Source: Allacma fusca | Lineage: Eukaryota > Arthropoda > Collembola > Symphypleona > Sminthuridae | Direction of reading: 5' to 3' | Assembly: GCA_947179485.1 (NCBI GenBank) | Contig: OX359245.1 | Span: 47,355,067-47,419,066, forward strand | Length of the DNA: 64,000 nucleotides | Shown: piece by piece, positions 3,672-58,300 of the stretch | How the letters are laid out: each line of letters begins with the position of its first letter | Position numbering within the stretch: position 1 is the stretch's first letter | Notes under the pieces: generated by a model | Database searches by the model: none | Seen by the model: only the letters and a program-made list of their open reading frames with translations | Told to the model about the DNA's origin: nothing | Translations under genes and position numbers: made by a program

Positions 3672-4102
3672 TAGTGTTTCTGCTCGGTATCGGGAATTCC
3701 CGAGGTTCCGGTTCGGTTTCGGATCAACGATTCAAAGAACCGTTACATTCCGTCCGGTTTCGGGTACAAAAATCAAAACCGAAAGTTTTCGGGAAGGGTT
3801 TGTTAAAGCTGCCTTTTTGGATGAAAACGCGAAACATGAATTTGTCAAGCATTTGTCAACTATCATTTGAAAACGCGTCGCAATTTCGACTTCCATGAAA
3901 ATGAATTCTATGCATTTTCTGCCTGTTCGGGAAGGAACCGGTCCGGGAACCGATTTTATTTTCCGTATCGGTTCCGGGAATGCAAAAATGTTCCGGACTC
4001 GAACATATCTGTTCCGGTTTCGGGAACAGAAAAGGGATTTTTTTTCGGTTCGGGAAAACGAGTCGGGTCGAGTCCTTGTTTTTGGACCGTTCAGAAACAC
4101 TA
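3672..4102. mobile_element. hAT MITE, family 'TAGTGTTTCTG', older copy
   Basis: Starts TAGTGTTTCTGCTCGG and ends CGTTCAGAAACACTA, the same termini as the copies at 28475, 35708 and 37289. Shorter (431 bp against 495) and more diverged. No matching 8-bp TSD is visible, so one flank was probably rearranged. CGGTTTCGGG/GGTTCCGG words fill both ends. Long overlapping ORFs on both strands here come from this GC-rich repeat structure and are not genes. Confidence 0.75.
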
Positions 4103-6405
4103 GTGTGAACTAACAAACTCGTAGTATGTCAACTTATTTATATTGGCGTGAAAGCTGAAAACCCATTAAAAGTAATTGAGGTGAGGTTGGTATTAAGAAA
4201 AAGTCTTTTTATGACAATTCAAAAATTTTCCAGTGTATTTGTAGGTTTTAAAAACGATTTTGTTCAATGATAGGTAGGTTGATGAGAGTAGACTCAAATG
4301 AATCCCCTGTAACTTGTTTGCAAAATCAGGTTCCCGGAAAAATCTATGAACGCCGAACTGTCCATGTAAAATTGAGGATCAGAAATTCTGTCCTTCTGCA
4401 ACTTTCTCGCTTCTGCTCCTGAATCTGAATTACTTTACAGGTTTTGGTCATGACCATATTTCTTACCAAACAGTCCTAATTATAAGAAAAGCAGCTTAGT
4501 GAATCCATTAAATATTTTAGAAATTATACTCAAAACTGTGTCTAAATTAATGTTTGAATTAATATTTTGAAGAACACCAACTCTGCTTAACACTTGACCC
4601 TGTGAGCTCAAATATTGATGGTGGATGGAGTTAATTTTAAAAAATTTGTAAGGATTTTTACTACAACCTTGGTAAGAAATCAATTACTTTCATTTGCATA
4701 AAATCGAGTTGGACTCCAAATTTAAAGTTACTTCCAAATGTTTTTACAGGCCCGTTTTATAAGGCTGGTTCAAAATAGGGTTTGGTTCAACTCTGTACTA
4801 AAATGTACCCGTTTTTTGAGGTAATTTTCCTGAGTGTTTTGTAAATTCCTTTCTTTCAGAAAGAATTGAAAGTCAACATCAAGTGAATGTTTGACATTGT
4901 TAATGAATAATTCGCAGAAGGTTTTCTAACCTCAAAATTACATCCAGTCGAGGAGTAAGAAATACTAATGTTGCATGAAAGCGAAGCAAGTCATTCTCAT
5001 TTTCTAAATCAGCATCGTCTCTCTTGTAGGAAAGGTGTGTGACCCGGCGTGTTTCTAAATGCTGCACTATATGCCTAATTTATTGTAATTTTAATTAACT
5101 TAAAAGTTTATTATAATTACTGATTTTGATCACCTTTATTTTTGAGTTTAATTAAATCAATTTGAAATCCAGATAAATACCTCTTGCTGGTATTTAAATC
5201 ATATCAGATATGAATTCCAAACTGAAATAGATGTTACTTATAAAGAACCATCATTGTCGAGTGGATTTTAAAAAATGTAACGAGACAATGGTAGTTGTCA
5301 AAGTAACCAATATTTTATTTTAATTTACCTATTTTACTCCCCACCCTGTAAAACAAATTGCACTCAAACACTCTCTAATAATTTTTTTTAAAATTCAATC
5401 GATTTAAACGGGTTCAAAAGCTTCAGTTTCAAAACAAATCAATTTCAAAAATCTCACAGAGAATTTGCTAACGAAGGGGAAATTACATTTTTGTAAGACC
5501 TTTTCCTGGTCTAATGAGCGAATAAATGTTATGGAAATCGGGACCGGCAATTAAAAACTTTCCAAAATGGTAATATTTACAATCATGAGAGTTATTGAAC
5601 AGTCTGTTTAAAATTTTTATTTTGTATAAATATTCCCTTACACCAAGAGATATTTTCGTTTTGTAAGGATGACTCCGGTCCAAATACACGAGGAGAGAAA
5701 ATTTTGCACGTCTTGCCAGTCTGGTTTTGGTCGCTTGAAAATGCCAAGATGTCTTGAGTATTTTACTGCATGATTCTGGACTTATTTAATAAAATATTTG
5801 CATTGCAAAATTCGCAGGACTCAGGACAATATGTACAGGAAAACTCTTTAAATGACGAATTGAAACGCCACGATGGATAATTTCTTTGTATTGTTGCAAG
5901 TACTGTTTCAATAGTTTAAAGAATTAACAATGTCCAACTTGCATATCAAAATTAATAAATTCAGTATTCATTGCAAACCAACGTTTTCACAGCTACAGAT
6001 ATTTCTACAACCGTGATAATAATGTCGTGGCGTTAAAAATAGTTTTCACCTTTTTCAATAAACTAGTCGGATTTATTATTCTGATAGTATCTACCACTTC
6101 ATCTTTCGAGGACGCAAAAGCAACTTCTTTTTTTAAGCTTTTTAAGCTATTAATTTATTTCGACATTTTGGACTTGTAAAGCTACAGTACTGGATAGCCT
6201 AGTTGAAATATTTCAGACAATAATGACTTTTGCCAGTGAAGTGCATGAACGTAATTATTCGCTAATTTTTGGAAGTTTTGTTAAAGTGGAAAATTCAAAT
6301 TTGAACCAACCAGAGCGATATCAATGCATGATAGAAATCATTTAAATTAATGTCCGACAATGTATTAATGGACCCCAAAGTTAATCTTATAGTGTGCTTC
6401 CACTC
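4103..6405. repeat. Old array, first partial unit
   Basis: No credible gene. Decayed copies of blocks seen elsewhere: GGCGTGAAAGCTG block at 4144 (also near 8154, 8874, 40570, 45071, 57478); TTTGCTTGACACTT-type block near 4585; ACTTCCAAAT/TTTTTGAGG block at 4708-4910; GCATCGTCTCT block near 5010; and an exon-like block at 5480-5690 (see findings). From about 5700 to 6400 I see only AT-rich, weakly repetitive sequence. Confidence 0.6.
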
Positions 6406-16573: not shown

Positions 16574-17710
16574 TTGAGTTTTTTTATTGGGGTTTATACT
16601 CCGATTTCTTGCCCTTAAGGCCTTACAGAGTTTTCTTTTACCTCCTTTATTCTCTTTAATTTATTTACAAACTGGAGCCATTCTGGTCGATTAGCTGCGT
16701 ACTGTGAAGTGGAGCGGCCGCCCATTCCACACTTACTCAACCACAGGTCTGCATGTAAACTCGTCATCATATGACTAATAACCGAAGGTAGAGGTCTAGG
16801 CCCCCGCTACGTGAGCAGTCCGCTATACATTACCACATACAGTTTCAAAGCACATACCCGGTGTCACATACAGCATCCCCGCAGTATCGCAAGCATGTAT
16901 ATCACCACACACATACGCAGACTTAGCTATAGAGAGAGTGAAAATGTGGAACTACAGGTAGAGACAGAGGATATGCAGACAAGGGAGGAGACACGGGACA
17001 TGCCACGGACACAATCTTATCCGAGATATCAGCAGTCGAAGTATATACAAATACACCAATTCATCTTACGAATCATTATCAGTGTTCGGCACACAATACT
17101 CCTGCTGATACTCTTCCAAGAATGCCAAACATGCCTCCAGACCTCATTGGCATATCGATAGTGTAAAGAGAAAGATAGAAATGAGCTGAAATTTTTTTGG
17201 GGTGAGCTAGATTCGAAAGCCGACTCTTCTGCAACCTTACAGATTCACTACACCGGCCAGGCAGTGGTGGCTGAGTTGTCAGAGCGTCCCGTTCGTTGCG
17301 GCTGGAATTGGTTTTCGATTCCAGTAAAGCTCTGATACTTTCAAAATAATTTCCACTGCTCTTTCTATCTTCTACTGTAGCTTTGTGTAAGGGGAGGAGA
17401 GGGCGTGAAAGGGACTTGCACTCTGAAGACTGGAACCATGGCCTGGAAGCACAGAGGAACTAACAGTGGACATCCTTAAGACGGAGGGGAACTAGGAGAA
17501 GCTGCCAATCTGCAAAGATCGCTAGACATTCCAGTCAAATGAGCGTCCGTTAATCCGTTTCGAACCTTACTCCTCTCTCTCCCAAATTACCTCCTACTCT
17601 ACATTTCCCCAGCCGGAGCAAAGACTTGTGATATACTCCCTAAATGGGAGGAATGAACTGATGGGTATTTGTCCCACTCGTCTAGCTCTGTGCCAGCTCT
17701 AGGTGGATGC

Positions 17711-28466: not shown

Positions 28467-28977
28467 GGAAACATTAGTGTTTCTGTTCGGTATCGGGAAT
28501 TCCCGAGGTTCCGGTTCGGTTTCGGTTCCGGTACAGTTTCGGGTCAATATTTTAAAGAACCGTTACATTTCGGTCCGGTTTCGGGTCATCGGTTTATGAA
28601 CCATCAAATTTCGGGACGGTTTCGGGTACAAAATTCAAAACCGAAAGTTTTCGGGAATGGTTTGTTAAATCTGCCATTTTGGATGAAAACGCGAAACTTG
28701 CATTTGGCCAGCATTTGTCAACTATCATTTGAAAAGGCGACACAATTTTGGCTTCCATAAAAATGAATCATATACATTTTCTGTCGGTTCGGAAAGGAAC
28801 CAGAACCGGTTCGGGAACCGCTTTTATTTTCCGGATCGGTTCCGGGAAGCCAAAAATGTCCCGGACTCGAAAATATCGGTTCCGGTTTTGGGAACAGAAT
28901 TGAGATTTTTTTCGGTTCGGGAAAACGAGTCGGGTCGAGTCCATGTTTTGGTACCGTTCAGAAACACTAGGAAACAT
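28467..28977. mobile_element. hAT MITE, family 'TAGTGTTTCTG', with TSD
   Basis: The element is 28475-28969 (495 bp), with TSD GGAAACAT at 28467-28474 and 28970-28977. Ends TAGTGTTTCTG / CAGAAACACTA are perfect inverses. CGGTTTCGGG and GGTTCCGG words fill both halves; the core has GATGAAAACGCGAAAC and CATTTGTCAACTATCATTTG. Diverged from the 35.7 and 37.3 kb copies, so an earlier insertion. ORFs on both strands are by-products of composition. Confidence 0.9.
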
Positions 28978-35196: not shown

Positions 35197-36539
35197 TAAA
35201 GGCGTGGCCCGCGGGTAAAAATTCGGGTCGGGCCTCGGCCCGACCCGCCCGTGCGGGTTACGGGCGGGTTCGGGTTTAAGGCTTTGTCGTGTTGCAAGTT
35301 GCGGATCGGGTTGGGTTTTTATTGTATTTCAACGGGGCAGGTCGGGTTGAAATTTATGCACATAGTGCGGGCTGCGGGCGGGTTCGGGCAGGATTTAAAT
35401 ATACCTTGGGCCCGCAAGCAGCCCGCAAAACGTTTAAATTTCAATCACCGACGTTTAGGATTTTTCCAGAATTATATGGTTTGCGTCCGTTTGTGATTGC
35501 TCACGTTTCTGCCTTTGTAAGTGTTGGTTGTTACTATTCATCGTGTTCTTCGCTTATCATTGTGTGACTGTGACTTGTAACGTTTTGAAGTTGCTGCTCT
35601 GAAATCAAAAGCATGTAAAATTTGTTAGAGCAGTATTCTTACCATTAGTTAACGTTTCCTGCGAAGGGATTTTCAAACACAAATTAAAAATCGAACCAGC
35701 TACAGATTAGTGTTTCTGTTCGGTATCGGGAATTCCCGAGGTTCCGGTTCGGTTTCGGTTCCGGTACGGTTTCGGGTCAACGATTTAAAGAACCGTTAAA
35801 TTTCGGTCCGGTTTCGGGTCAACGGTTTAAAGAACCGTTACTTTCGGTCCGGTTTCGGGTACAAAAATCAAAACCGAAAGTTTTCGGGAATGGTTTGTTA
35901 AAGCTGCCTTTTTGGATGAAAACGCAAAACATGCATTTGCCAAGCATTTGTCAACTATAATTTGAAAACGCGACACAATTTTGACTTCCATGAAAATGAA
36001 TCCTATGCATTTTCTGCCGGTTCGGGAAGGAACCGGAACCGGTCCGGGAACCGATTTTATTTTCCGGATCGGTTCCGGGAAGGCAAAAATGTCCCGGACT
36101 CGAACATATCGGTTCCGGTTTCGGGAACAGAAAAGGGATTTTTTTCGGTTCGGGAAAACGAGTCGGTTCGAGTCCATGTTTTTGGACCGTTCAGAAACAC
36201 TACTACAGATATTGAAAATTTTTTAAAACTTAAATAATATTTATTCTTCGGTTTCTACGGTTTATACTTTTGTTTTAGACATTGTGATGGGAAGCGAATC
36301 TGACAGCGTTTTACTAAGTTCTTAAACAATTGCGGGCCCCGCGGGGGCCCGCAAGCTGGGTCGGGCTGTGTCACCTGAAACTCAGCGGGCTGCGGTCTGG
36401 CGCGGGCCTAAACAAATACTGTCGGGTCGGGGCGGGTCGACGTTTCAGAGGTTGACTTTCGGGTCGGGCGGGTTCGGGTTACGTATTTGTGGGTAAGACT
36501 CGGGTTGGGTTGGGAAATCTCCTGCGGGCCACGCCTTTA
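35197..36539. mobile_element. hAT element with CGGGCGGGTT arrays, contains a nested hAT MITE
   Basis: TSD GCGTGAAC at 35189-35196 and 36540-36547. TIR TAAAGGCGTGGCCCGC against its exact inverse at the right end. Very GC-rich subterminal arrays (GGGTCGGGC, GGGCGGGTTCGGG) at 35220-35420 and 36310-36520 contrast with the AT-rich host. Its own length is about 840 bp after removing 35708-36210. The pre-insertion sequence is recognisable near 14938 (CACAATGTGAGAACCGAG). Confidence 0.9.
35708..36202. mobile_element. hAT MITE, family 'TAGTGTTTCTG', young copy 1
   Basis: 495 bp, TSD CTACAGAT at 35700-35707 and 36203-36210. Inserted inside the 35197-36539 element. By eye it is identical over its whole length to the copy at 37289-37783, but with a different TSD, so the two result from separate recent insertions. 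Confidence 0.93.
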
Positions 36540-37288: not shown

Positions 37289-37783
37289 TAGTGTTTCTGT
37301 TCGGTATCGGGAATTCCCGAGGTTCCGGTTCGGTTTCGGTTCCGGTACGGTTTCGGGTCAACGATTTAAAGAACCGTTAAATTTCGGTCCGGTTTCGGGT
37401 CAACGGTTTAAAGAACCGTTACTTTCGGTCCGGTTTCGGGTACAAAAATCAAAACCGAAAGTTTTCGGGAATGGTTTGTTAAAGCTGCCTTTTTGGATGA
37501 AAACGCAAAACATGCATTTGCCAAGCATTTGTCAACTATAATTTGAAAACGCGACACAATTTTGACTTCCATGAAAATGAATCCTATGCATTTTCTGCCG
37601 GTTCGGGAAGGAACCGGAACCGGTCCGGGAACCGATTTTATTTTCCGGATCGGTTCCGGGAAGGCAAAAATGTCCCGGACTCGAACATATCGGTTCCGGT
37701 TTCGGGAACAGAAAAGGGATTTTTTTCGGTTCGGGAAAACGAGTCGGTTCGAGTCCATGTTTTTGGACCGTTCAGAAACACTA
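37289..37783. mobile_element. hAT MITE, family 'TAGTGTTTCTG', young copy 2
   Basis: 495 bp with termini TAGTGTTTCTG / CAGAAACACTA. Its TSD GTATAACG is at 37784-37791 on the right. On the left it is at 36711-36718, separated from the element by the later 36722-37283 insertion. By eye, sequence-identical to 35708-36202. Confidence 0.93.
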
Positions 37784-47100: not shown

Positions 47101-47713
47101 TACTTCTTGTGTGTATGATGTGCATCTTCAATTTAAATGGAAATTCAGCACGTGGGACGGTACTCCTCTTGGACGTTTTAGTACCTAAGTAGGTCGAGTG
47201 GATGCGAGACGATGTAATAATCTATGAGACGATATATTTCTACGATGAAAAATCTCACGGAATCCGACAGGAGATCCGGATTTCGGCTGAGTGTTTTAGG
47301 GAATTTAACAAGTGTTTCCCAACTGTTCAATTTGTAGAAATGCAAAACAGGTAACTAATAAATAACTAGCAAATAAAGGCAATATACCTAAATATATGCA
47401 TAACCTATCTTAGAATCGTGGAGAATAAAACAAAACATTTTGACTCAGGTTTGTAACCTCAATGTATCCAACGTTGCTGGTACGCTTCGTTAAATTGAAT
47501 ATGCCAAATATATTTAAGTATGAAGTTATATTATGAGTGTTAAAGACATTGGTTGGGTTTTAATTAATTGCATCAGGTCTTACAGTGAACTCAAGCGTAC
47601 AATATACTACATGTCTTTGAAATTAATTCAAAATTTTGAGAGTGAATAAGTTCATAAAGAAATTATTTATCATATTTTATCGCCAATTAGGCGATAGTGT
47701 TTGCAGACTCGCC

Positions 47714-48899
47714 CTAAGGTTTCGAATTAACGAATTCGTAATCAATGTGGTTTCCGTATCGATTCATTTGTACAAACACTTGAATGAAGCCCGAAACCAT
47801 CGTACTAATACTTTCTATGCTCAACCAGAACGCAGCTTTCTCAACCTGGTTCAAATCAGTAAGGTAACTGTCGTCTTCCAGCAAATGTTTCACTTCATTC
47901 CGATAATCCAACACGGTCTGGTTGTGCTCCATGATGGTTTCTTCTTGGCTTGTTTAAATGTTAGATTTCGGGCTTCCATTGTAATCAAAACTCCGTTATC
48001 CACACGAATCTTTGTTTCCCGAGCATCCTCCAATTCTTTAAGGACACTTAGCAAATCGTTAATCATCCAGCCCGCCGTGAACGCCAGATTCATGAGCCTC
48101 TTTCAATAGAAATTTTCACGGATATTTGTAGTAACATGAATTCCCTCAAGAACAATAAAAAATTCAAACGGGAGTTAACATCCTTGAGTTCTTGTTCTGA
48201 GGAGGGGCCTCAAATTCAAGTCAAGTAAATGAGAGTTATCAATGCTTCCAAACCATGTTTGCATTTCGCAAAGTTCCCGGATGGTTCTAGCCAGGTAATT
48301 GGTCTGATCAGGGTCTAACGAAAATTCCGATTTCATGTCTTGTGTCAGATCAAAGAAGAGGAGAATGATGCCTTCCTCGAACTCGGTGATTTCCTTCATA
48401 GTAAAAAACAATGGATGCTGTTTTAGTTCTTCAGCAGTGTTAAACTCAAATAGAAAGATTTTTTGCAATAAGCGCCCCATGCTTTTCACAATTTCCGAGT
48501 ACCGGGCAAGACCGATAGTGTCTTCGCAAATATCATCCGAAATTATAATCAACGTAATGAACACACTGAACAAGGTCAATTTTTTATGATCTTCTTGATT
48601 TCTCTGGGACGATTGTTTTAATGGGGAGACGAGTGTAGCCATCCAAGTAAAATCCTTGACAGCTTTACCGTAAACACTTTCAATTGAATTTACGAATTCG
48701 ATATGTTTTTCATATATTCCAGCACTTCATGAGTATGCTGTTCAACTACATTCTCAAATTCAGTTATGTCTGGGATCCATTGGTAGGGCCAGCAGAATGT
48801 TATATCTCTCCAAAAATCTTTTTCTTCGGATTCAACAAGCTTTCTTGTGCTCCGCGAATTTCCAAATCTCCAGATAGAGACATTGTCCGTAACCCTCAT
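47714..48899 (-). pseudogene. Microbial-type class I terpene synthase pseudogene
   Basis: Class I terpene synthases ionise prenyl diphosphates with Mg2+ and cyclise the cation. Here the frame starts at ATG 48899 (stop just upstream) and ends TAG at 47714-47716, about 395 codons, close to the 320-380 of bacterial, fungal and amoebal enzymes, with no intron. Hallmarks: N-terminal WPYQWIPD region; Asp-rich motif DDICED at 48537-48520; Arg at 48198-48196, exactly 46 codons before the NSE Asn, the place of the pyrophosphate-sensor Arg; NSE triad NDLLSVLKE at 48060-48034; Arg-Tyr pair at 47761-47756 near the C-terminus. Lesions: frameshift near 48695, TAA at 48177-48175, TGA at 48105-48103, frameshift near 47935. 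The frame is conserved across both stops (LPFEFFIVLEGI lies between them). Substrate and product cannot be told. No poly(A) or TSD is seen, so retroposition is not shown; horizontal origin is inferred. Confidence 0.78.
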
Positions 48900-49950
48900 G
48901 TTATATATGTAATAAGGTGATCAGTTTGGATTCAAACAGGGTACAATTAGGAAATTCCGAAACGTGTTAAATGCTCAACACACAACAAGTTCTCTGGAAA
49001 TGAGATTGAATGAAGAAAATCACGCTCCTCTAGTACTGCCAACAATAAGAACATCAAAAACAATAGAAGAGCAGCTTTTATATGCTTGAAACGTTTGTAG
49101 TAAATTGGTTCACATGTAAAGCCGGGTTGGATGCAAAACAGATTCTAATCGACGAAAAAGAACATTCTAGAAACCCTTTGGGAAATTTTGAAAGTAACAT
49201 GAGAATTATTTACACGTGGAGTTTTTTATTATTAGATTCATACAGCTTGTATACACTCTGGGAAATTTCGTTCTGTTTTGGTTCAAGGTTTAAAGATTAT
49301 ATGAATGATAAATTCCAGTTGTGCTGGTATTTATATATTAATAATTGGTAAATATTGCTGCTTCCTATCATATTTAGACTGGTTTTACTTCAAGTATCAG
49401 AACTTTCCAAAAGCACGTGGCTTAAGTATTTGCACGTGGAGAATAAATGTTTAACAAAGTATATTAATTTTTACATTCAATAAAGTTGAAAATAATAGAT
49501 ATTTCTTGTGAAATTTATTTACCGCCTATCAAATTATCCAAAGCTGCTAGTAATGCATAGCGCAACTATATATACGGGCTATAGGTATTAGTGTTTGAGT
49601 ACAGGTCTCGCTATAGGTCCAAAATGGTTATCGTAGGAATATCCGCAAGCATTCCCTTGTTTTTTTAAATGTAAATTGGGGGTTCTATTATTCCATTATT
49701 ATGTGAACCTGAGGAGAGAAATTAAACCATCATTTCCCAAACATTTCCAACTTGACTAGGATTCTGGGGTATGTAAAGGTAAGTTGCAAAATACGACCGT
49801 ACGACATTCGCTCTATTAATATGCAATGAAAGAATTCCGAACATATAAACTAGTAATTTCTTCATTATTCCTTAACCTTTGGTGAGAGCTTGACGAAAAC
49901 TATATTTTTCGGATGTCCAAGTCTGCTTTTAAGTAATTTTTGGAAATTCA
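48900..49950. other. Unique flank upstream of the terpene synthase pseudogene
   Basis: With 47101-47713 this forms an island lacking the array markers. No ORF here is convincing; the longest (49082-49351, +) has no recognisable motif and starts at no special context. It would hold the promoter of the minus-strand pseudogene, but I see no element I can name. Confidence 0.45.
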
Positions 49951-50296
49951 AACGATTTCAACGGCTTTTTTGTGTCTTCTGTGACGATGCTGTGCAGACA
50001 ACGTTTTCATACAGATGAAACCACGTGCATAGAAAACAGTTATCTGCCATGGAGGTTATAAAATTTACAATATGCCATATATTATGCTTATCTCTCAATG
50101 AATGTCATCTTTTGAATGATATGTATACCGGCAGGTTAAGAGGATGTGTGTAACTTTGATTTCAGTAAAGATCCGAAATCGGGTTATTTTTTAAATTTCA
50201 AAACTAGCCGACACAAAATTAATTTTTTAAATGCATTTGTAAAATTCATCTCGGGTTAATTTACCTTGAATATGGGGAAATTGAGCAAGTGCCAGA
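49951..50296. repeat. Old array resumes
   Basis: CTTCTGTGACGATGCTGTGC and ATACCGGCAGGTTAAG blocks match 42708 and 42845. No gene. Confidence 0.5.
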
Positions 50297-50299
50297 TTA

Positions 50300-52203: not shown

Positions 52204-54427
52204 TGTCCTAAATTAGAAAACGTTGTTCAGACCTTGCGCATGGTAATGTATGAAAATTTTTCCAGCTTCCTTTCAGTTCTACGATCAGATTACTTTTACC
52301 GCTAGAACATCCGTGAAATAGATACAGTGGCGTCGAAGGATATATATTTTCAAAGTTTTCGTATCTTAATTCGGCAAAATAAATTTATGTCAAAGCTGGT
52401 GGTTTTTAAGACCTAATAATTATGTATGCATATTTTAACATGAATGTGCAGACATTTTTAAAATATTGGAAGGCAATTTGAATGATGAAATATTTAGCTA
52501 TTGTCAAAGCGGATAAATTGCATTCCGTGGACGTCATAACTGGCGTTGTTCTGACCAATTGTTAATGCTGTCAGCTGTAACATCTACGCACAGAATAATT
52601 TTTTGATTGTAAACTTTCTATTTACTCCACACGGTCCGACTCAGAATCTTAAAAAACTGGGTACTCCAGAAATGAATTCTGGCTCTAAAAATTTTTCCTA
52701 TGGTTAAGTCACGAAACTAGAACCTAAGTCTAAAGCCAATTACATAAATCTACACTTGTTTTTAAAATATTAAAGTTGTATGAAGCTATGTATAAAATTA
52801 TAGCGTATTTTAGGAGTGAAACGTTGCCTTGCATTATGCTCAAGAAAAATAAATAAAAACGAATCAATTTAAAATCATTTATCCGAAATTAAAACCAAAA
52901 TTTTTGCAATTACAAACATACTGTATTGGAGTTGTTTTTAAAAGATTCATTTTCAAGGAAATATGTAATATATCGTCGCCTAAATTCCAAAAAGTACCAT
53001 TTTCATTTGCGAACCCGTTTAAAAAGCATAGGCCGTGAAATGAAAATGGTGCTTTTTAGAATTTAGCCAACAATTTATTCCCTTCCTAAGGAAATATCGT
53101 TTTGTACTGTATATCTGAATTGCAAAGAAGAACTCGAAGAGCATGCGATGTATCTTTCCAATTCAGATTTGTACGAAAACGAAATTATTGAATTAGTAAA
53201 AAAGCCTGTAATTATTACACTTTAGCATTTTTATTCACACATGTACTAGCATTTGTTTATGTTCGTTTCAAAAACACATTTATACTGCGACAAGACATAA
53301 TAATTTTGGCCTTGTGTGTTTGCTCCAATTAATTTTTCCATATGTTGACTGTCACTTTTTTCATATTAACTGAATTTGAATATGAACTGAAGACAAAAAA
53401 CGTAATAAGAAAGGTTTTCAATACTTACAAATGCTTCCCTGAGCTCCGTGATTTTCAAGAGGCGTTATTTGTATAAAATTCTGGAGGTTTTACAATGACA
53501 GCTCCGTGGAAGAACTTTATCCTGACAATTGAGGTCACAATAATTTAATCATAATGAACAAGCATGAAACAAATATTTAGTCCCAGTGGTCATACTGAAC
53601 ATTTGTGAAAATTTTGATTTTATAGCTTGTGACCTCAAACCCCACGCATCAATAGCACCAAATAATTATTTCTGCAATGCTGTCGCAAAGTAAATAATCT
53701 ACGACATTTTACGCTCAATTTAAAAATACAAACACTTTTGGAAAAAATGGTTTTGCTAATTTTTGTAATTTTATTTCGAATTTATCCAATAATGTTTAAT
53801 TTATGTCTGTTCTCAAAGTATTTTTGTACCAACGTAAAATATCCCAGTTGGTGACACAATTATAATTCATGATAATTTAAAAATGGAATTGTTTTCAGTT
53901 TCATTTTCTCAAAATCCAGTTGGAAGTCACCCCAAATTTAAAGTTACTTCAAACTTTTTTCAGTTTTTTTTTGTAAATTTCTTACGTTCATACACAACTG
54001 TAAGTTTAATTCAAGTGAACGTCTGAAATTGTTGAGCTTCCAGTGGATTACATTAACATGAAACTACGTATTTACAAGCAGCCGAGAATTAGAAAAACGT
54101 TATCTGGCGTCAAAGCGAAGGATTATTTATAACAAGTCATTTACTACTTCTAAATCAGCATCGTCTCTCTAGTAGGAAGGCTCTGTGACCTGGCGTGTTT
54201 CTAAATGTATGAATAATATGCGCAAGTTATTGTTATTATTCTAATTAACTTCAAAATTTAATATATGAAGCTTTTAATCTTTTTAAATTTTAAGTGAATA
54301 AATTTAAAATCCAGATAATCACCACTTTCTGGTATTTAAGTCGTGTAAACCATCATTATTTTTAATTACCGTAATTTACGTTACGTTCTAAGCAATTCGT
54401 TTTTAACAACGTTTCCATTTTCTACTT
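52204..54427. repeat. Old array, unit restarting near 52.8 kb
   Basis: GATACAGTGGCGTCGAAGG at 52321, the unit marker near 52830, an ATTTTTCCATATGTTGACTGT block near 53331, GGTGACACAATTATAATTC near 53850, CTGGCGTCAAAGCGAAGG at 54103, GCATCGTCTCTCTAG near 54160. No gene. Confidence 0.55.
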
Positions 54428-54780
54428 ATGGACAAGCTCCAGGCAGGTTATCTATTGAGCCTACTCCCAGGCCTTTGTCCAGTGCAGTGGTTTTTTCCTT
54501 CCCCGTCCTTATACTCCCTATCCTCACAGTGTAAGTGTCTTGACGTTCCCACTTATTATTGCTTAGCCATGGTTTTGGCTTCTCATACATGTGCCCTTTG
54601 TCAAACAAAAATTAGAACTAGGGCTTTGTTTCTGAAGTGTTATGGTTGCAAACTATTATATCACCGCACCTGTGTGAAACTAAGCCTAAAAACATACAGA
54701 TCTATAAATCTGGACCTGTGGTCTTGTGTTGCCGGTGTGAGTACAGCAGAAAAAGGCGCTGACAGTATTCTACCAAATGA
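54428..54780 (+). pseudogene. PHD-finger fragment of a non-LTR retrotransposon ORF1
   Basis: Open frame with a PHD-type zinc-binding pattern at 54590-54736: CALC, 12 residues, CYGC, four residues, His (KLLYHRTC), then WSC about 17 residues on. The ligands are C55, C58, C71, C74, H79, C82 and C100. The eighth ligand, expected at residue 103, is Gly (GGT instead of TGT), so the last site is lost. PHD fingers occur in chromatin proteins and in ORF1 of some CR1-like LINEs. The isolated, repeat-embedded context favours the LINE reading. The start at 54428 is arbitrary, and the frame runs on into the adjoining SINE. Confidence 0.6.
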
Positions 54781-54783
54781 AAG

Positions 54784-55318
54784 ACCGGGCCTGCGGTCTG
54801 GTGGTGTAGTGAATCTGTAAGGTTGCAGAAGAGTCGGCTTTCGACTCTAGCTCTCCCCAAAATAATTTCAGGTCATTTCTATCTTTCTCTATACACTATA
54901 GATATGCAAATGAGGTCTGGAGGCATGTTGCGCATTCTTGGAAGAGTATCAGCAGGAGTAGTGTGTGTCGTACACTGATAATGATTCGTAAGATGAATTG
55001 GTGTATTTGTATATACTTCGACTGCTGATATCTCGGATAAGATTGTGTCCGTGGCATGTCCCGTGTCTCCTCCCTTGTCTGCATATCCTCTGTCTCTACC
55101 TGTAGCTTCACAATTCACTCTCTCTCTCTCTATAGCTAAGTCTGCGTATGTGTGTGGTGATATACGTGCTTGCGAGACTGCGTGGATGCTGTGTGTGACA
55201 CCGGGTATGTGCTTTGAAACTGTATGTGCTAATGTATAGCGGACTGCACACGTAGCGGAGGCCTAGACCTCTACCTTCGGTTATTAGTCATATGATGACG
55301 AGTTTACATGCAGGCCTG
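54784..55318 (+). mobile_element. SINE-like retroposon, second copy
   Basis: Begins GACCGGGCCTGCGGTCTGG and matches the reverse complement of 16730-17254 plus 19150-19189 along its length, with the two later insertions absent. tRNA-like head: TGGTGTAGTG-type A box and TTTCGACTCTAG-type B box. It ends near ACATGCAGGCCTG without the poly(A) part, so it is 3' truncated. ORFs on both strands here (for example 54879-55118) are shared with the other copy and are not genes. Confidence 0.7.
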
Positions 55319-58300
55319 GGTGGAGAATCTTTACCACAAGAATTGAGACCACGAGCCTAACGCAAAAAAACAATGTAGAAGTGTAAGGCGTAAGAGGAGA
55401 ATTCTTGAACTTTCTATATAACGTGTGTATGTATGCGGGTATGCGGTAGCAACAGTAATGTACATATTGATGAGTGCAAGTATTATTGCGAATCAAATCT
55501 TCAAGGCCGTATAATGTAATGTCATTTTAATTGAATCGGATTTCATCGGGATATCGTTAAATTCTAATATCAATACTGATACTTACTTTCTAATTGCAAT
55601 TAGAATTCCAATACCTAATTCTACAATAATTTTAATTCCGGTGCCGATCCTAATATTTTAAATTTTCGGATTCTTTTTCAAATCCGATTCGAATTTTCAA
55701 CCCTGCAAAATCAAAATGTTTACTTTTTGTAACAACGAGACTGCAAAAGTTACTGGTTTATCTTTTCTCAAAGCTAAATATAGCCAAGCTGAACATTTAA
55801 AAAAAAACCTGCTGTAATAGGCTTTTAAAAATTTGATTTCTTTAACAAAAATCCTGGTTTTCTTCCACGTCTTTAAGAGAGTTGTATCAAGCGTTTTGAG
55901 TTAACGGAACGAGACAAATTAGGAAATATTTTGAAAACATTTTGTGCAGAATAGGAGAGAATTTAAAGTTCGTTGACGTTTTACTTGCTTGGGTTTAGTC
56001 TGACTTTACGATTTTAAAACATATGGTTAAAAAAATCGCTTTCTATATCTACATTGGTTTGTAAAGGGGCACATACCTTTGGACAACGAAACAGAATTTG
56101 CCAACAGAATCAAGATTTTGCCAAAAATCGGCCGTGTTGTTTGTTAATTTGTTAAAACAAGTGTCAAAATAGTGGCATCCCTTAAAAAACTGAGATGGCA
56201 ATTGTGTGATTAACTGTAAAGATTTTGCTATGTAATCCAGTAGTCTCTAAAGGTTGTAATTCCCATAACATAATTTTCCTCGGATTTCAATACCGTAGCC
56301 ATGTAGTTTTATATTAAACCTCAAATTCATGATGCTAACTTTGCAGCATCTGAGAGAATAGATACAATGGCGTCGAAGGAAAAATATTTTCAAATTTTGG
56401 TATTTTAAATCGGCAAAATACATTTTGTTTCAAAGCTGCTGATTTTCAGGGTATAATACGTAGTGTGACATGAATGTTCAAAAATGTTTTTAAATATCAA
56501 AAGAAAATTTAAACGAGCAAATGTATTGCCGTTGTCAAAGCCAACAAATTGTATTCGGCTGGACGTCATGACTGAACTTTGTTCGGACCGATTGAAGTTA
56601 TAAGTTAACGCTATAAAATTGACACACTGACCAAGGTTCTTGCTTAAATAATTAACTCGAACCTCCATCAAGGATTTCTAGACAGAATATTTTGTGCGGC
56701 GTGAATGCTAAAGCAATTTAGAAATACCTAGGCAAGAAACATCATTAACAGTTGTTATGTGATTGTTGTGTGACAAACGAAGTCCCAGAAAATATTTTGA
56801 CTGTGCACAATTGTAATGGGAAAAATCTTCTAAAATCTTCAATTTTGCTCCTGTTGGTGATAATTATGACCGCATTCTATCTCATCGGTCAAAACATGAA
56901 ATTTTGAAAATCTGGACTAGAATTTCTTGACAGTGGGGGAGTAATTACGTCGTACATTATAGAGACTAGTGGTGCAAAATGTATGTAAGATAGTAACTGA
57001 TATTATTCAGGATTTTAATTTCAAAATATTTATTTCAAATTTGAAAAAATATTTGAAGAGCGAAAGTTAAACATTTTATTTTAAACAATTGTTTGTCGAA
57101 GAAATGAATGTTGACTCACAAATGTTTTTATGAGTACGTCACGTAACTCGTACCTAGGTCTAAAGCCAGTTATATAAAGTACATTTGTTTTTAAATAGTT
57201 TTAAATAAAAAAAAGTAGACTAGGAGCAAAACATTTGACTACTTCTGTATCCAATGAATAGCTAAAGAGCATAGATATGTCTCTGGAATTCAGATGCGGA
57301 ATTTGTACGAAAAGGATATCCTAAGATTTTTAAAAAAATATTATATTTTCGTATCTTTTCGTTTTGAGTAGACAATACAATACAGGTGTTTATTTATGTT
57401 CGTTTTACAAACCCATTGAAACTGCGACAACGAAACTTCAGTAATGTGCAAAGGGAGGAAAGTAAAATTATTTGAGTTGGCTTTAAAGCTGCAAATCCTT
57501 TAAAAGCAATTGAGGCAAGATTGATGTTAAGAAAGACTATCTTTTTGAATGACAATTCAAAACCTTTCCCTTATATCTGTAGGTTTTAAAACCGAATTTA
57601 CTCACGTGGGTGGGTGCAGCTAGACTCCAATGAATTTACATTACCTTTCGTGCAAACTAAGCGTTCAGGAAAAAATGCATGAACAATGATCACGGGACTG
57701 TCCATGAAAAACTGAAGATCAGAAATTCCGTAATTCTGCATCATTCTCGCTTTTGCTCTTGAATCTGAATTTCTTCACAGCTTTTGGTCATGTCCATATT
57801 TCTACCCTAACAGTCCTACGCACTTAGAGAATTCATGAAATGTTTTACAAATTAGCCTAGAAATTGTGTTTGAAAATTAATATTTTGAGAAACATCAACT
57901 TTGCTTGACACTTCTCAACTCAAGGAGTTCAAATATTGACCCGGTTAGATGGAGTGAACTCTAGAAAATTTGTAACGACATTTGCTATTACCTTAGGGAG
58001 AATCAAATATTTTATAAGACATGAGGACTTGAGGTGGACAAAATAATAATGGTCTTGCATGTACATATGTTCCATTTAATTTTTCCACATGTACACTGTC
58101 CCTTCTTACTTTTTAAATAAATCTGGATGTGAAGGGTAGGCTCAAATGACAAAAAATGTTTCCCACACCTAAAAATGTTCCCTTGATCTACGGGAATATC
58201 AGCAGGCACTCTTTGAAAAAAATTCTAAAGGATTACCAGGGAAACCTGTGTGGAGGGGTTTTACCCTGAAAATTGAAGTCACGAGAATTAATCATAAGAA

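Follow-up and report, generated by a model that had tools for sequence, protein, structure and literature searches.

A broken canonical class I terpene synthase gene and its paralogues in the springtail Allacma fusca

Bacteria, fungi and plants make their terpenes with a class of enzyme that animals seldom use for the purpose. A first-pass annotation of a 64,000-nucleotide stretch of DNA (contig OX359245.1, here C1, positions 47,355,067 to 47,419,066; the whole stretch is called the window) reported a decayed gene of this class in what it took to be an arthropod genome. The host is indeed an arthropod, the globular springtail Allacma fusca, rather than one of the trombidid mites for which the annotation cited such genes. 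The locus raises the question of what the gene encoded, how it was lost and what family it came from. An all-helical class I fold is common to the isoprenyl diphosphate synthase (IDS) and terpene synthase superfamilies, and so is a DDxxD motif. We conclude that the remnant is very probably a recently inactivated member of a large A. fusca family of canonical class I terpene synthases whose coding frames are uninterrupted. There is nothing unusual about the pseudogene itself; what draws interest is the size and turnover of its family.

The remnant of this canonical class I terpene synthase gene (47714..48899) lies on the minus strand, as do all of its features given here, and runs from an ATG at 48899-48897 to a terminal TAG at 47716-47714; the boundaries first assigned to it proved accurate. 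It consists of three pieces. The first (48711..48899) carries the start codon and the N-terminal 63 residues up to frameshift 1, with 59% identity to residues 1-66 of a paralogue, L076. The second (47947..48711) is the catalytic core, 62% identical to residues 63-319 of L076, and the third (47714..47944), after frameshift 2, is the C-terminus, 57% identical to residues 318-398. The overlap of the paralogue alignments places frameshift 1 within 48702-48714 and frameshift 2 within 47944-47950, and comparison with the paralogues shows two in-frame stops inside the core, at 48175..48177 and 48103..48105. These two frameshifts and two stops are the full count of lesions, which bears out the earlier description of a decayed copy. 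They prevent a full-length product, and with intact paralogues present the locus is a pseudogene.

The catalytic motifs have been kept. Aligned to bacterial enzymes and to the paralogues, the remnant shows the first metal-binding motif DDICED, of the form DDxx(D/E), at 48520..48537, the arginine of LRTRTQG at 48196..48198, the second metal-binding motif NDLLSVLKE, the NSE triad, at 48034..48060, and a C-terminal Arg-Tyr pair at 47756..47761. DDICED, NDLLSVLKE and Arg-Tyr thus follow one another on one strand in the order that had been described (48537-48520, 48060-48034 and 47761-47756, read on the minus strand). The arginine stands 46 residues ahead of the NSE asparagine, and we take it to be the diphosphate-sensor position of bacterial class I enzymes. 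A three-motif pattern with spacing limits, which were set after the case had been seen, occurred once in the window and in none of 400 first-order Markov copies.

We scored the core (48711-47947) against Pfam after replacing its two stops by a neutral residue. PF19086 was the sole family at E<=1, with 39.7 bits (E 5.7e-10) against a curated cut-off of 23.7, and the assignment to microbial-type class I terpene synthases thus stands. The annotation had suggested a profile scan of the fragments; among five pieces scanned singly, the 70-residue frame that contains NDLLSVLKE reached PF19086 by itself (E 2.3e-4, 21.4 bits, below the 23.7 cut-off), and the other four, one of them taken in a wrong frame, gave no Pfam match. 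A reading with four frameshifts was dropped when the paralogues showed that 48185-48106 (about 26 residues) had been taken in the wrong frame. Scores obtained with that join understate the match, since it is partly in the wrong frame: 25.4 bits for PF19086, with DUF6376 also at E 0.24; 17.7 bits for NCBIfam NF041167, whose cut-off is 400; and 57% identity to L076, for which the corrected value is 62%.

The presence of intact relatives elsewhere in the genome had been predicted, and a genome search for them was carried out over 392,743,791 bases in 91 contigs. PF19086 matched 44 places in A. fusca and none in 14 control genomes. A protein search with the nearest intact paralogue gave 65 matches. 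Merging both lists wherever the gap was under 600 bases left 59 places, of which C1 holds 38. This figure counts merged matches and not genes: short fragments are included, more than one match may belong to a single gene (C1:4,897,287 and L042, for example), and the number may be too low because the family search scores best candidates only. Among 11 stretches examined, L084 did not match the family model although it had been matched in the protein search; four short protein-search matches (C1:4,897,287, 43,940,705, 71,271,616 and 71,290,722) had no stretch of their own examined. One open frame covered more than 90% of the 391-position family model at 28 of the 44 loci, and 16, including the window copy, fell short. 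With one further unbroken locus, L079, there are 29 in all, which confirms the prediction.

The 28 unbroken frames measure 382-446 amino acids from stop to stop and have no introns in the coding frame, though untranslated parts may contain some. Both aspartates of the first metal motif are present in 25 of these paralogues, the sensor arginine in all 28 and Arg-Tyr in 27. The NSE pattern, with glycine allowed for serine, is also found in all 28 (serine in 15; glycine in 13, namely L036, L040, L041, L043, L047, L048, L055-L058, L062, L073 and L078). L045 and L049 have Gly-Asp instead of Asp-Asp in the first metal motif, keep NSE and RY, and are 90% identical to each other with an NG86 omega of 0.20; they possibly have an altered chemistry under constraint. 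Some members may be inactive, since L045 and L049 lack the first aspartate and Arg-Tyr is missing from L067, which ranks among the unbroken loci.

A different origin, from an IDS or from an insect-type terpene synthase derived from one, would also imply a class I helical fold and a DDxxD motif. Passages of PMC12246896 and PMC13143122 describe other insects that use IDS-derived enzymes for terpenes, and a passage of PMC6275457 says that the terpene synthases known at that date from Folsomia candida, another springtail, resemble, and are closer to, those of flea beetles. PF19086 was nevertheless the only Pfam match not just of the core but of all seven intact paralogues compared with the database (L079 with a limit of E<=1, the other six with E<=0.01). 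The view that the gene is not of the prenyltransferase-derived type agrees with the lack of any match to PF00348, either by the core at E<=1 or by the same seven paralogues. An IDS is also hard to square with the 28 unbroken paralogues, all of which have the NSE triad and the sensor arginine and 27 of which have RY.

A profile of 13 paralogues retrieved 48 rows from the PDB at E<=1, seven of them below E 0.01, and 47 of the 48 were terpene synthases. The remaining row was a V-ATPase subunit (E 0.2), and none was named as an isoprenyl diphosphate synthase. The best matches were (+)-T-muurolol synthase of Roseiflexus castenholzii, at 1.1e-6, and 10-epi-cubebol synthase of Sorangium cellulosum. 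With a single paralogue as query, three terpene synthases (best E 3.4e-4) and two unrelated dipeptidase-like proteins (E 0.12-0.14) were returned. We consider descent from an IDS or IDS-derived enzyme very improbable, and keep to a canonical terpene synthase.

One piece retrieved only Nup88 from the PDB (E 0.75), and the four-frameshift join retrieved nothing there at E<=10. Against a bacterial terpene synthase profile widened with selinadiene synthases, that join aligned in register from NSE to RY at 4.2 bits, and the score was exceeded by one of 500 shuffles. With a profile of 35 pentalenene-type synthases, the locus, as represented by the join, did not stand out among the frames of the window. 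When an alignment with bacterial enzymes was used as query, 194 proteins were found, and all 120 matches listed carry PF19086. The named proteins among those 120 are mostly actinobacterial selinadiene synthases because one such synthase sat in the query alignment. A protein database gave no hits with the join at E<=0.01 (2309 candidates) or with 13 paralogues at E<=0.001 (4747 candidates), in a search that needs shared 5-residue words and that relatives at about 30% identity can escape. Viral contigs and a prokaryote genome collection, the latter by short-pattern scan, contained no confirmed relative. Foldseek found no row at E<=0.001 for the predicted fold, and the resemblance of the model to bacterial terpene synthases is not independent, as the alignment behind it contained them. 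Two fold-search programs placed no isoprenyl diphosphate synthase in the best 50 rows of each, which, given that alignment, is no evidence against an IDS.

The lesions could be artefacts: the gene would then be intact in nature, and faulty assembly or short introns would account for its breaks. Five consecutive A adjoin frameshift 1, and two indels in 1.2 kb are possible as long-read errors in a poorer assembly. The published assembly of A. fusca, as described in passages of PMC10427803, is a chromosome-scale HiFi assembly of 392.8 Mb in 95 scaffolds with a QV of 58.7, and at that quality the lesions are unlikely to be sequencing errors. Errors of this kind also leave the two nonsense codons that accompany the frameshifts to be explained, and the near relative L046 has a stop codon of its own. 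As for introns, 29 paralogues have a single open frame of similar length, and the pieces in the window cover residues 1-398 of L076 with overlapping ends and leave no room for them. There is thus only a slim chance that the gene is intact, and the lesions are best read as those of a pseudogene.

In a tree of the 29 rows that reach 340 residues (a subset of the loci; midpoint root; four of 24 inner branches open), the window copy grouped with L076, its nearest unbroken relative. Support was 100/100, and the two are 62% identical over 391 columns; the tree program warned of long branches, L076 included. The other near relative, L046, is 84% identical to L076, and the region C1:71.258-71.324 Mb around these two holds five more partial matches. 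Nucleotide similarity between the window copy and its paralogues is confined to about the coding stretch and absent from the flanks compared.

Pairwise comparison of the window copy with L076 by NG86 gave a dN of 0.239 and a dS of 1.30. In a codon model of eight genes and 391 codons, with a fixed tree and one optimiser start each, omega on the window branch was 0.21 against 0.25 for the background (P=0.47), and an omega of 1 was rejected (P=2e-7). This constraint indicates that the copy worked for most of its separate history and died late. Among pairs of intact paralogues, 10 of 14 gave NG86 omega values of 0.14-0.42 and the other four were without synonymous change; by YN00, where computed, the values were 0.11-0.68.

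The same constraint, no weaker on the window branch than on the other branches, would be expected if the remnant still had a function, say that of a truncated protein or of an RNA that regulates its paralogues. An RNA does not explain constraint at the protein level, however, and the first frame from the ATG stops after 69 residues, ahead of every catalytic motif. Recent death explains the same omega. A present function is accordingly doubtful in the extreme, and recent inactivation remains our reading. The dead copy shows that losses have occurred in the family.

Enzymes of this class come chiefly from bacteria and fungi, and a contaminant or symbiont might have contributed such a gene. The window, however, lies at 47.36-47.42 Mb of an 81.9-Mb contig, repeat families that flank the remnant on both sides recur within the window, and copies of the family are found on five chromosome-sized contigs. 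The short-pattern scan of the prokaryote genome collection likewise yielded no relative. We give next to no credence to a foreign source in the sample and treat the gene as the springtail's own.

The surroundings of the remnant are repetitive. A second copy within the window exists for 48.5% of it, and the remnant sits in a 3.2-kb stretch without one (47102-50298). Two 495-base copies, at 35708-36202 and 37289-37783, are 100% identical, with relatives at 28473-28969 (92%) and 3706-4104 (93%). An inverted pair (16736-17254 and 54803-55325, 94% identical over 524 bases) adjoins a frame with a PHD finger (54407-54820), the one family over its cut-off when ten frames of the window were compared with Pfam; together they are perhaps a transposable element. 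At positions 1-1287 the plus strand has three open frames in succession, whose long hydrophobic stretches give the impression of a chemoreceptor-type membrane protein. None of the three matched Pfam at E<=0.1 and the last had no PDB match; this is possibly another broken gene, or one with short introns. Scans of the window for Rfam families, tRNAs and tandem repeats gave nothing that bears on the remnant.

The working ancestor of the remnant would have bound three magnesium ions through its DDxx(D/E) motif and NSE triad. It would then have removed the diphosphate from a prenyl diphosphate, presumably of C10, C15 or C20, and probably folded the resulting cation into a terpene. The family itself may have a microbial source and have reached the lineage by lateral transfer, perhaps by way of another arthropod; the enzyme class, the intron-free coding frames and the published cases point to lateral acquisition.

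Duplication, both tandem and dispersed, and frequent loss appear to reshape the family, and the window copy would be one instance of loss. Four terpene synthase genes, L055-L058, form a tandem array at C1:951,898-965,775, with a broken fifth copy, L071, at 947,492. Their repeat step is exactly 4407 bases and they are 99.97-100% identical over 3657 bases; the array is either a very recent amplification or an effect of assembly. That few animals, if any, have a larger family of canonical terpene synthases than A. fusca, whose family has deeply split clades, fresh tandem arrays and dying members, is a proposition for which we see the chances as evenly divided. If true, it would mean a fast-changing springtail terpene chemistry on laterally acquired genes, new for A. 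fusca. The dozens of springtail genes, many of them unbroken and constrained, offer a concrete set of enzymes for expression. They also make it possible to test directly whether springtails produce their own terpenes, and at what points and how many times arthropods gained such genes.

The literature holds several such cases. Chen et al. (2024, PNAS e2413007121) reportedly described canonical terpene synthases in fungus gnats, mites and springtails and proposed transfer between arthropods, and their abstract is said to name Collembola. Our literature search, which left out that paper and most subscription journals, found no paper on terpene synthases of Allacma. Laterally acquired terpene synthases in trombidid mites, to which the first-pass annotation had referred, do appear in print: passages of PMC6275457 describe canonical families of 39 and 17 members in Leptotrombidium deliense and 21 in Dinothrombium tinctorium. 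Other papers mention one such enzyme overexpressed in male dust mites (PMC12105342) and five such genes in a fungus gnat that are held to derive from mites (PMC12051294; compare PMC12246896). Transfer among springtails, gnats and mites is cited in a paper of 2026 (PMC13389597).

Among known systems, the IDS-derived terpene synthases of flea beetles, sand flies and termites likewise make terpenes from prenyl diphosphates, but their ancestry and motifs are unlike those of the A. fusca family, and their own Pfam family found no match in the core or the seven intact paralogues scanned. The trombidid mites, by their published description, share with A. fusca large canonical families of low identity to microbial enzymes, and A. 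fusca is a springtail. The arthropod enzymes of Chen et al. are reportedly of the same class as the A. fusca family. The bacterial enzymes that we aligned are only 13-20% identical to the A. fusca sequences, a weak resemblance, and in the latter the first motif and the sensor arginine stand about 16-20 residues further apart and 13 of 28 unbroken members have glycine in place of the serine of the canonical NSE triad. With the canonical bacterial and fungal class I enzymes of PF19086 (Terpene_syn_C_2), however, the A. fusca family has in common the same motifs in the same order and spacing, a single domain of about 390 residues and a score over the curated cut-off.
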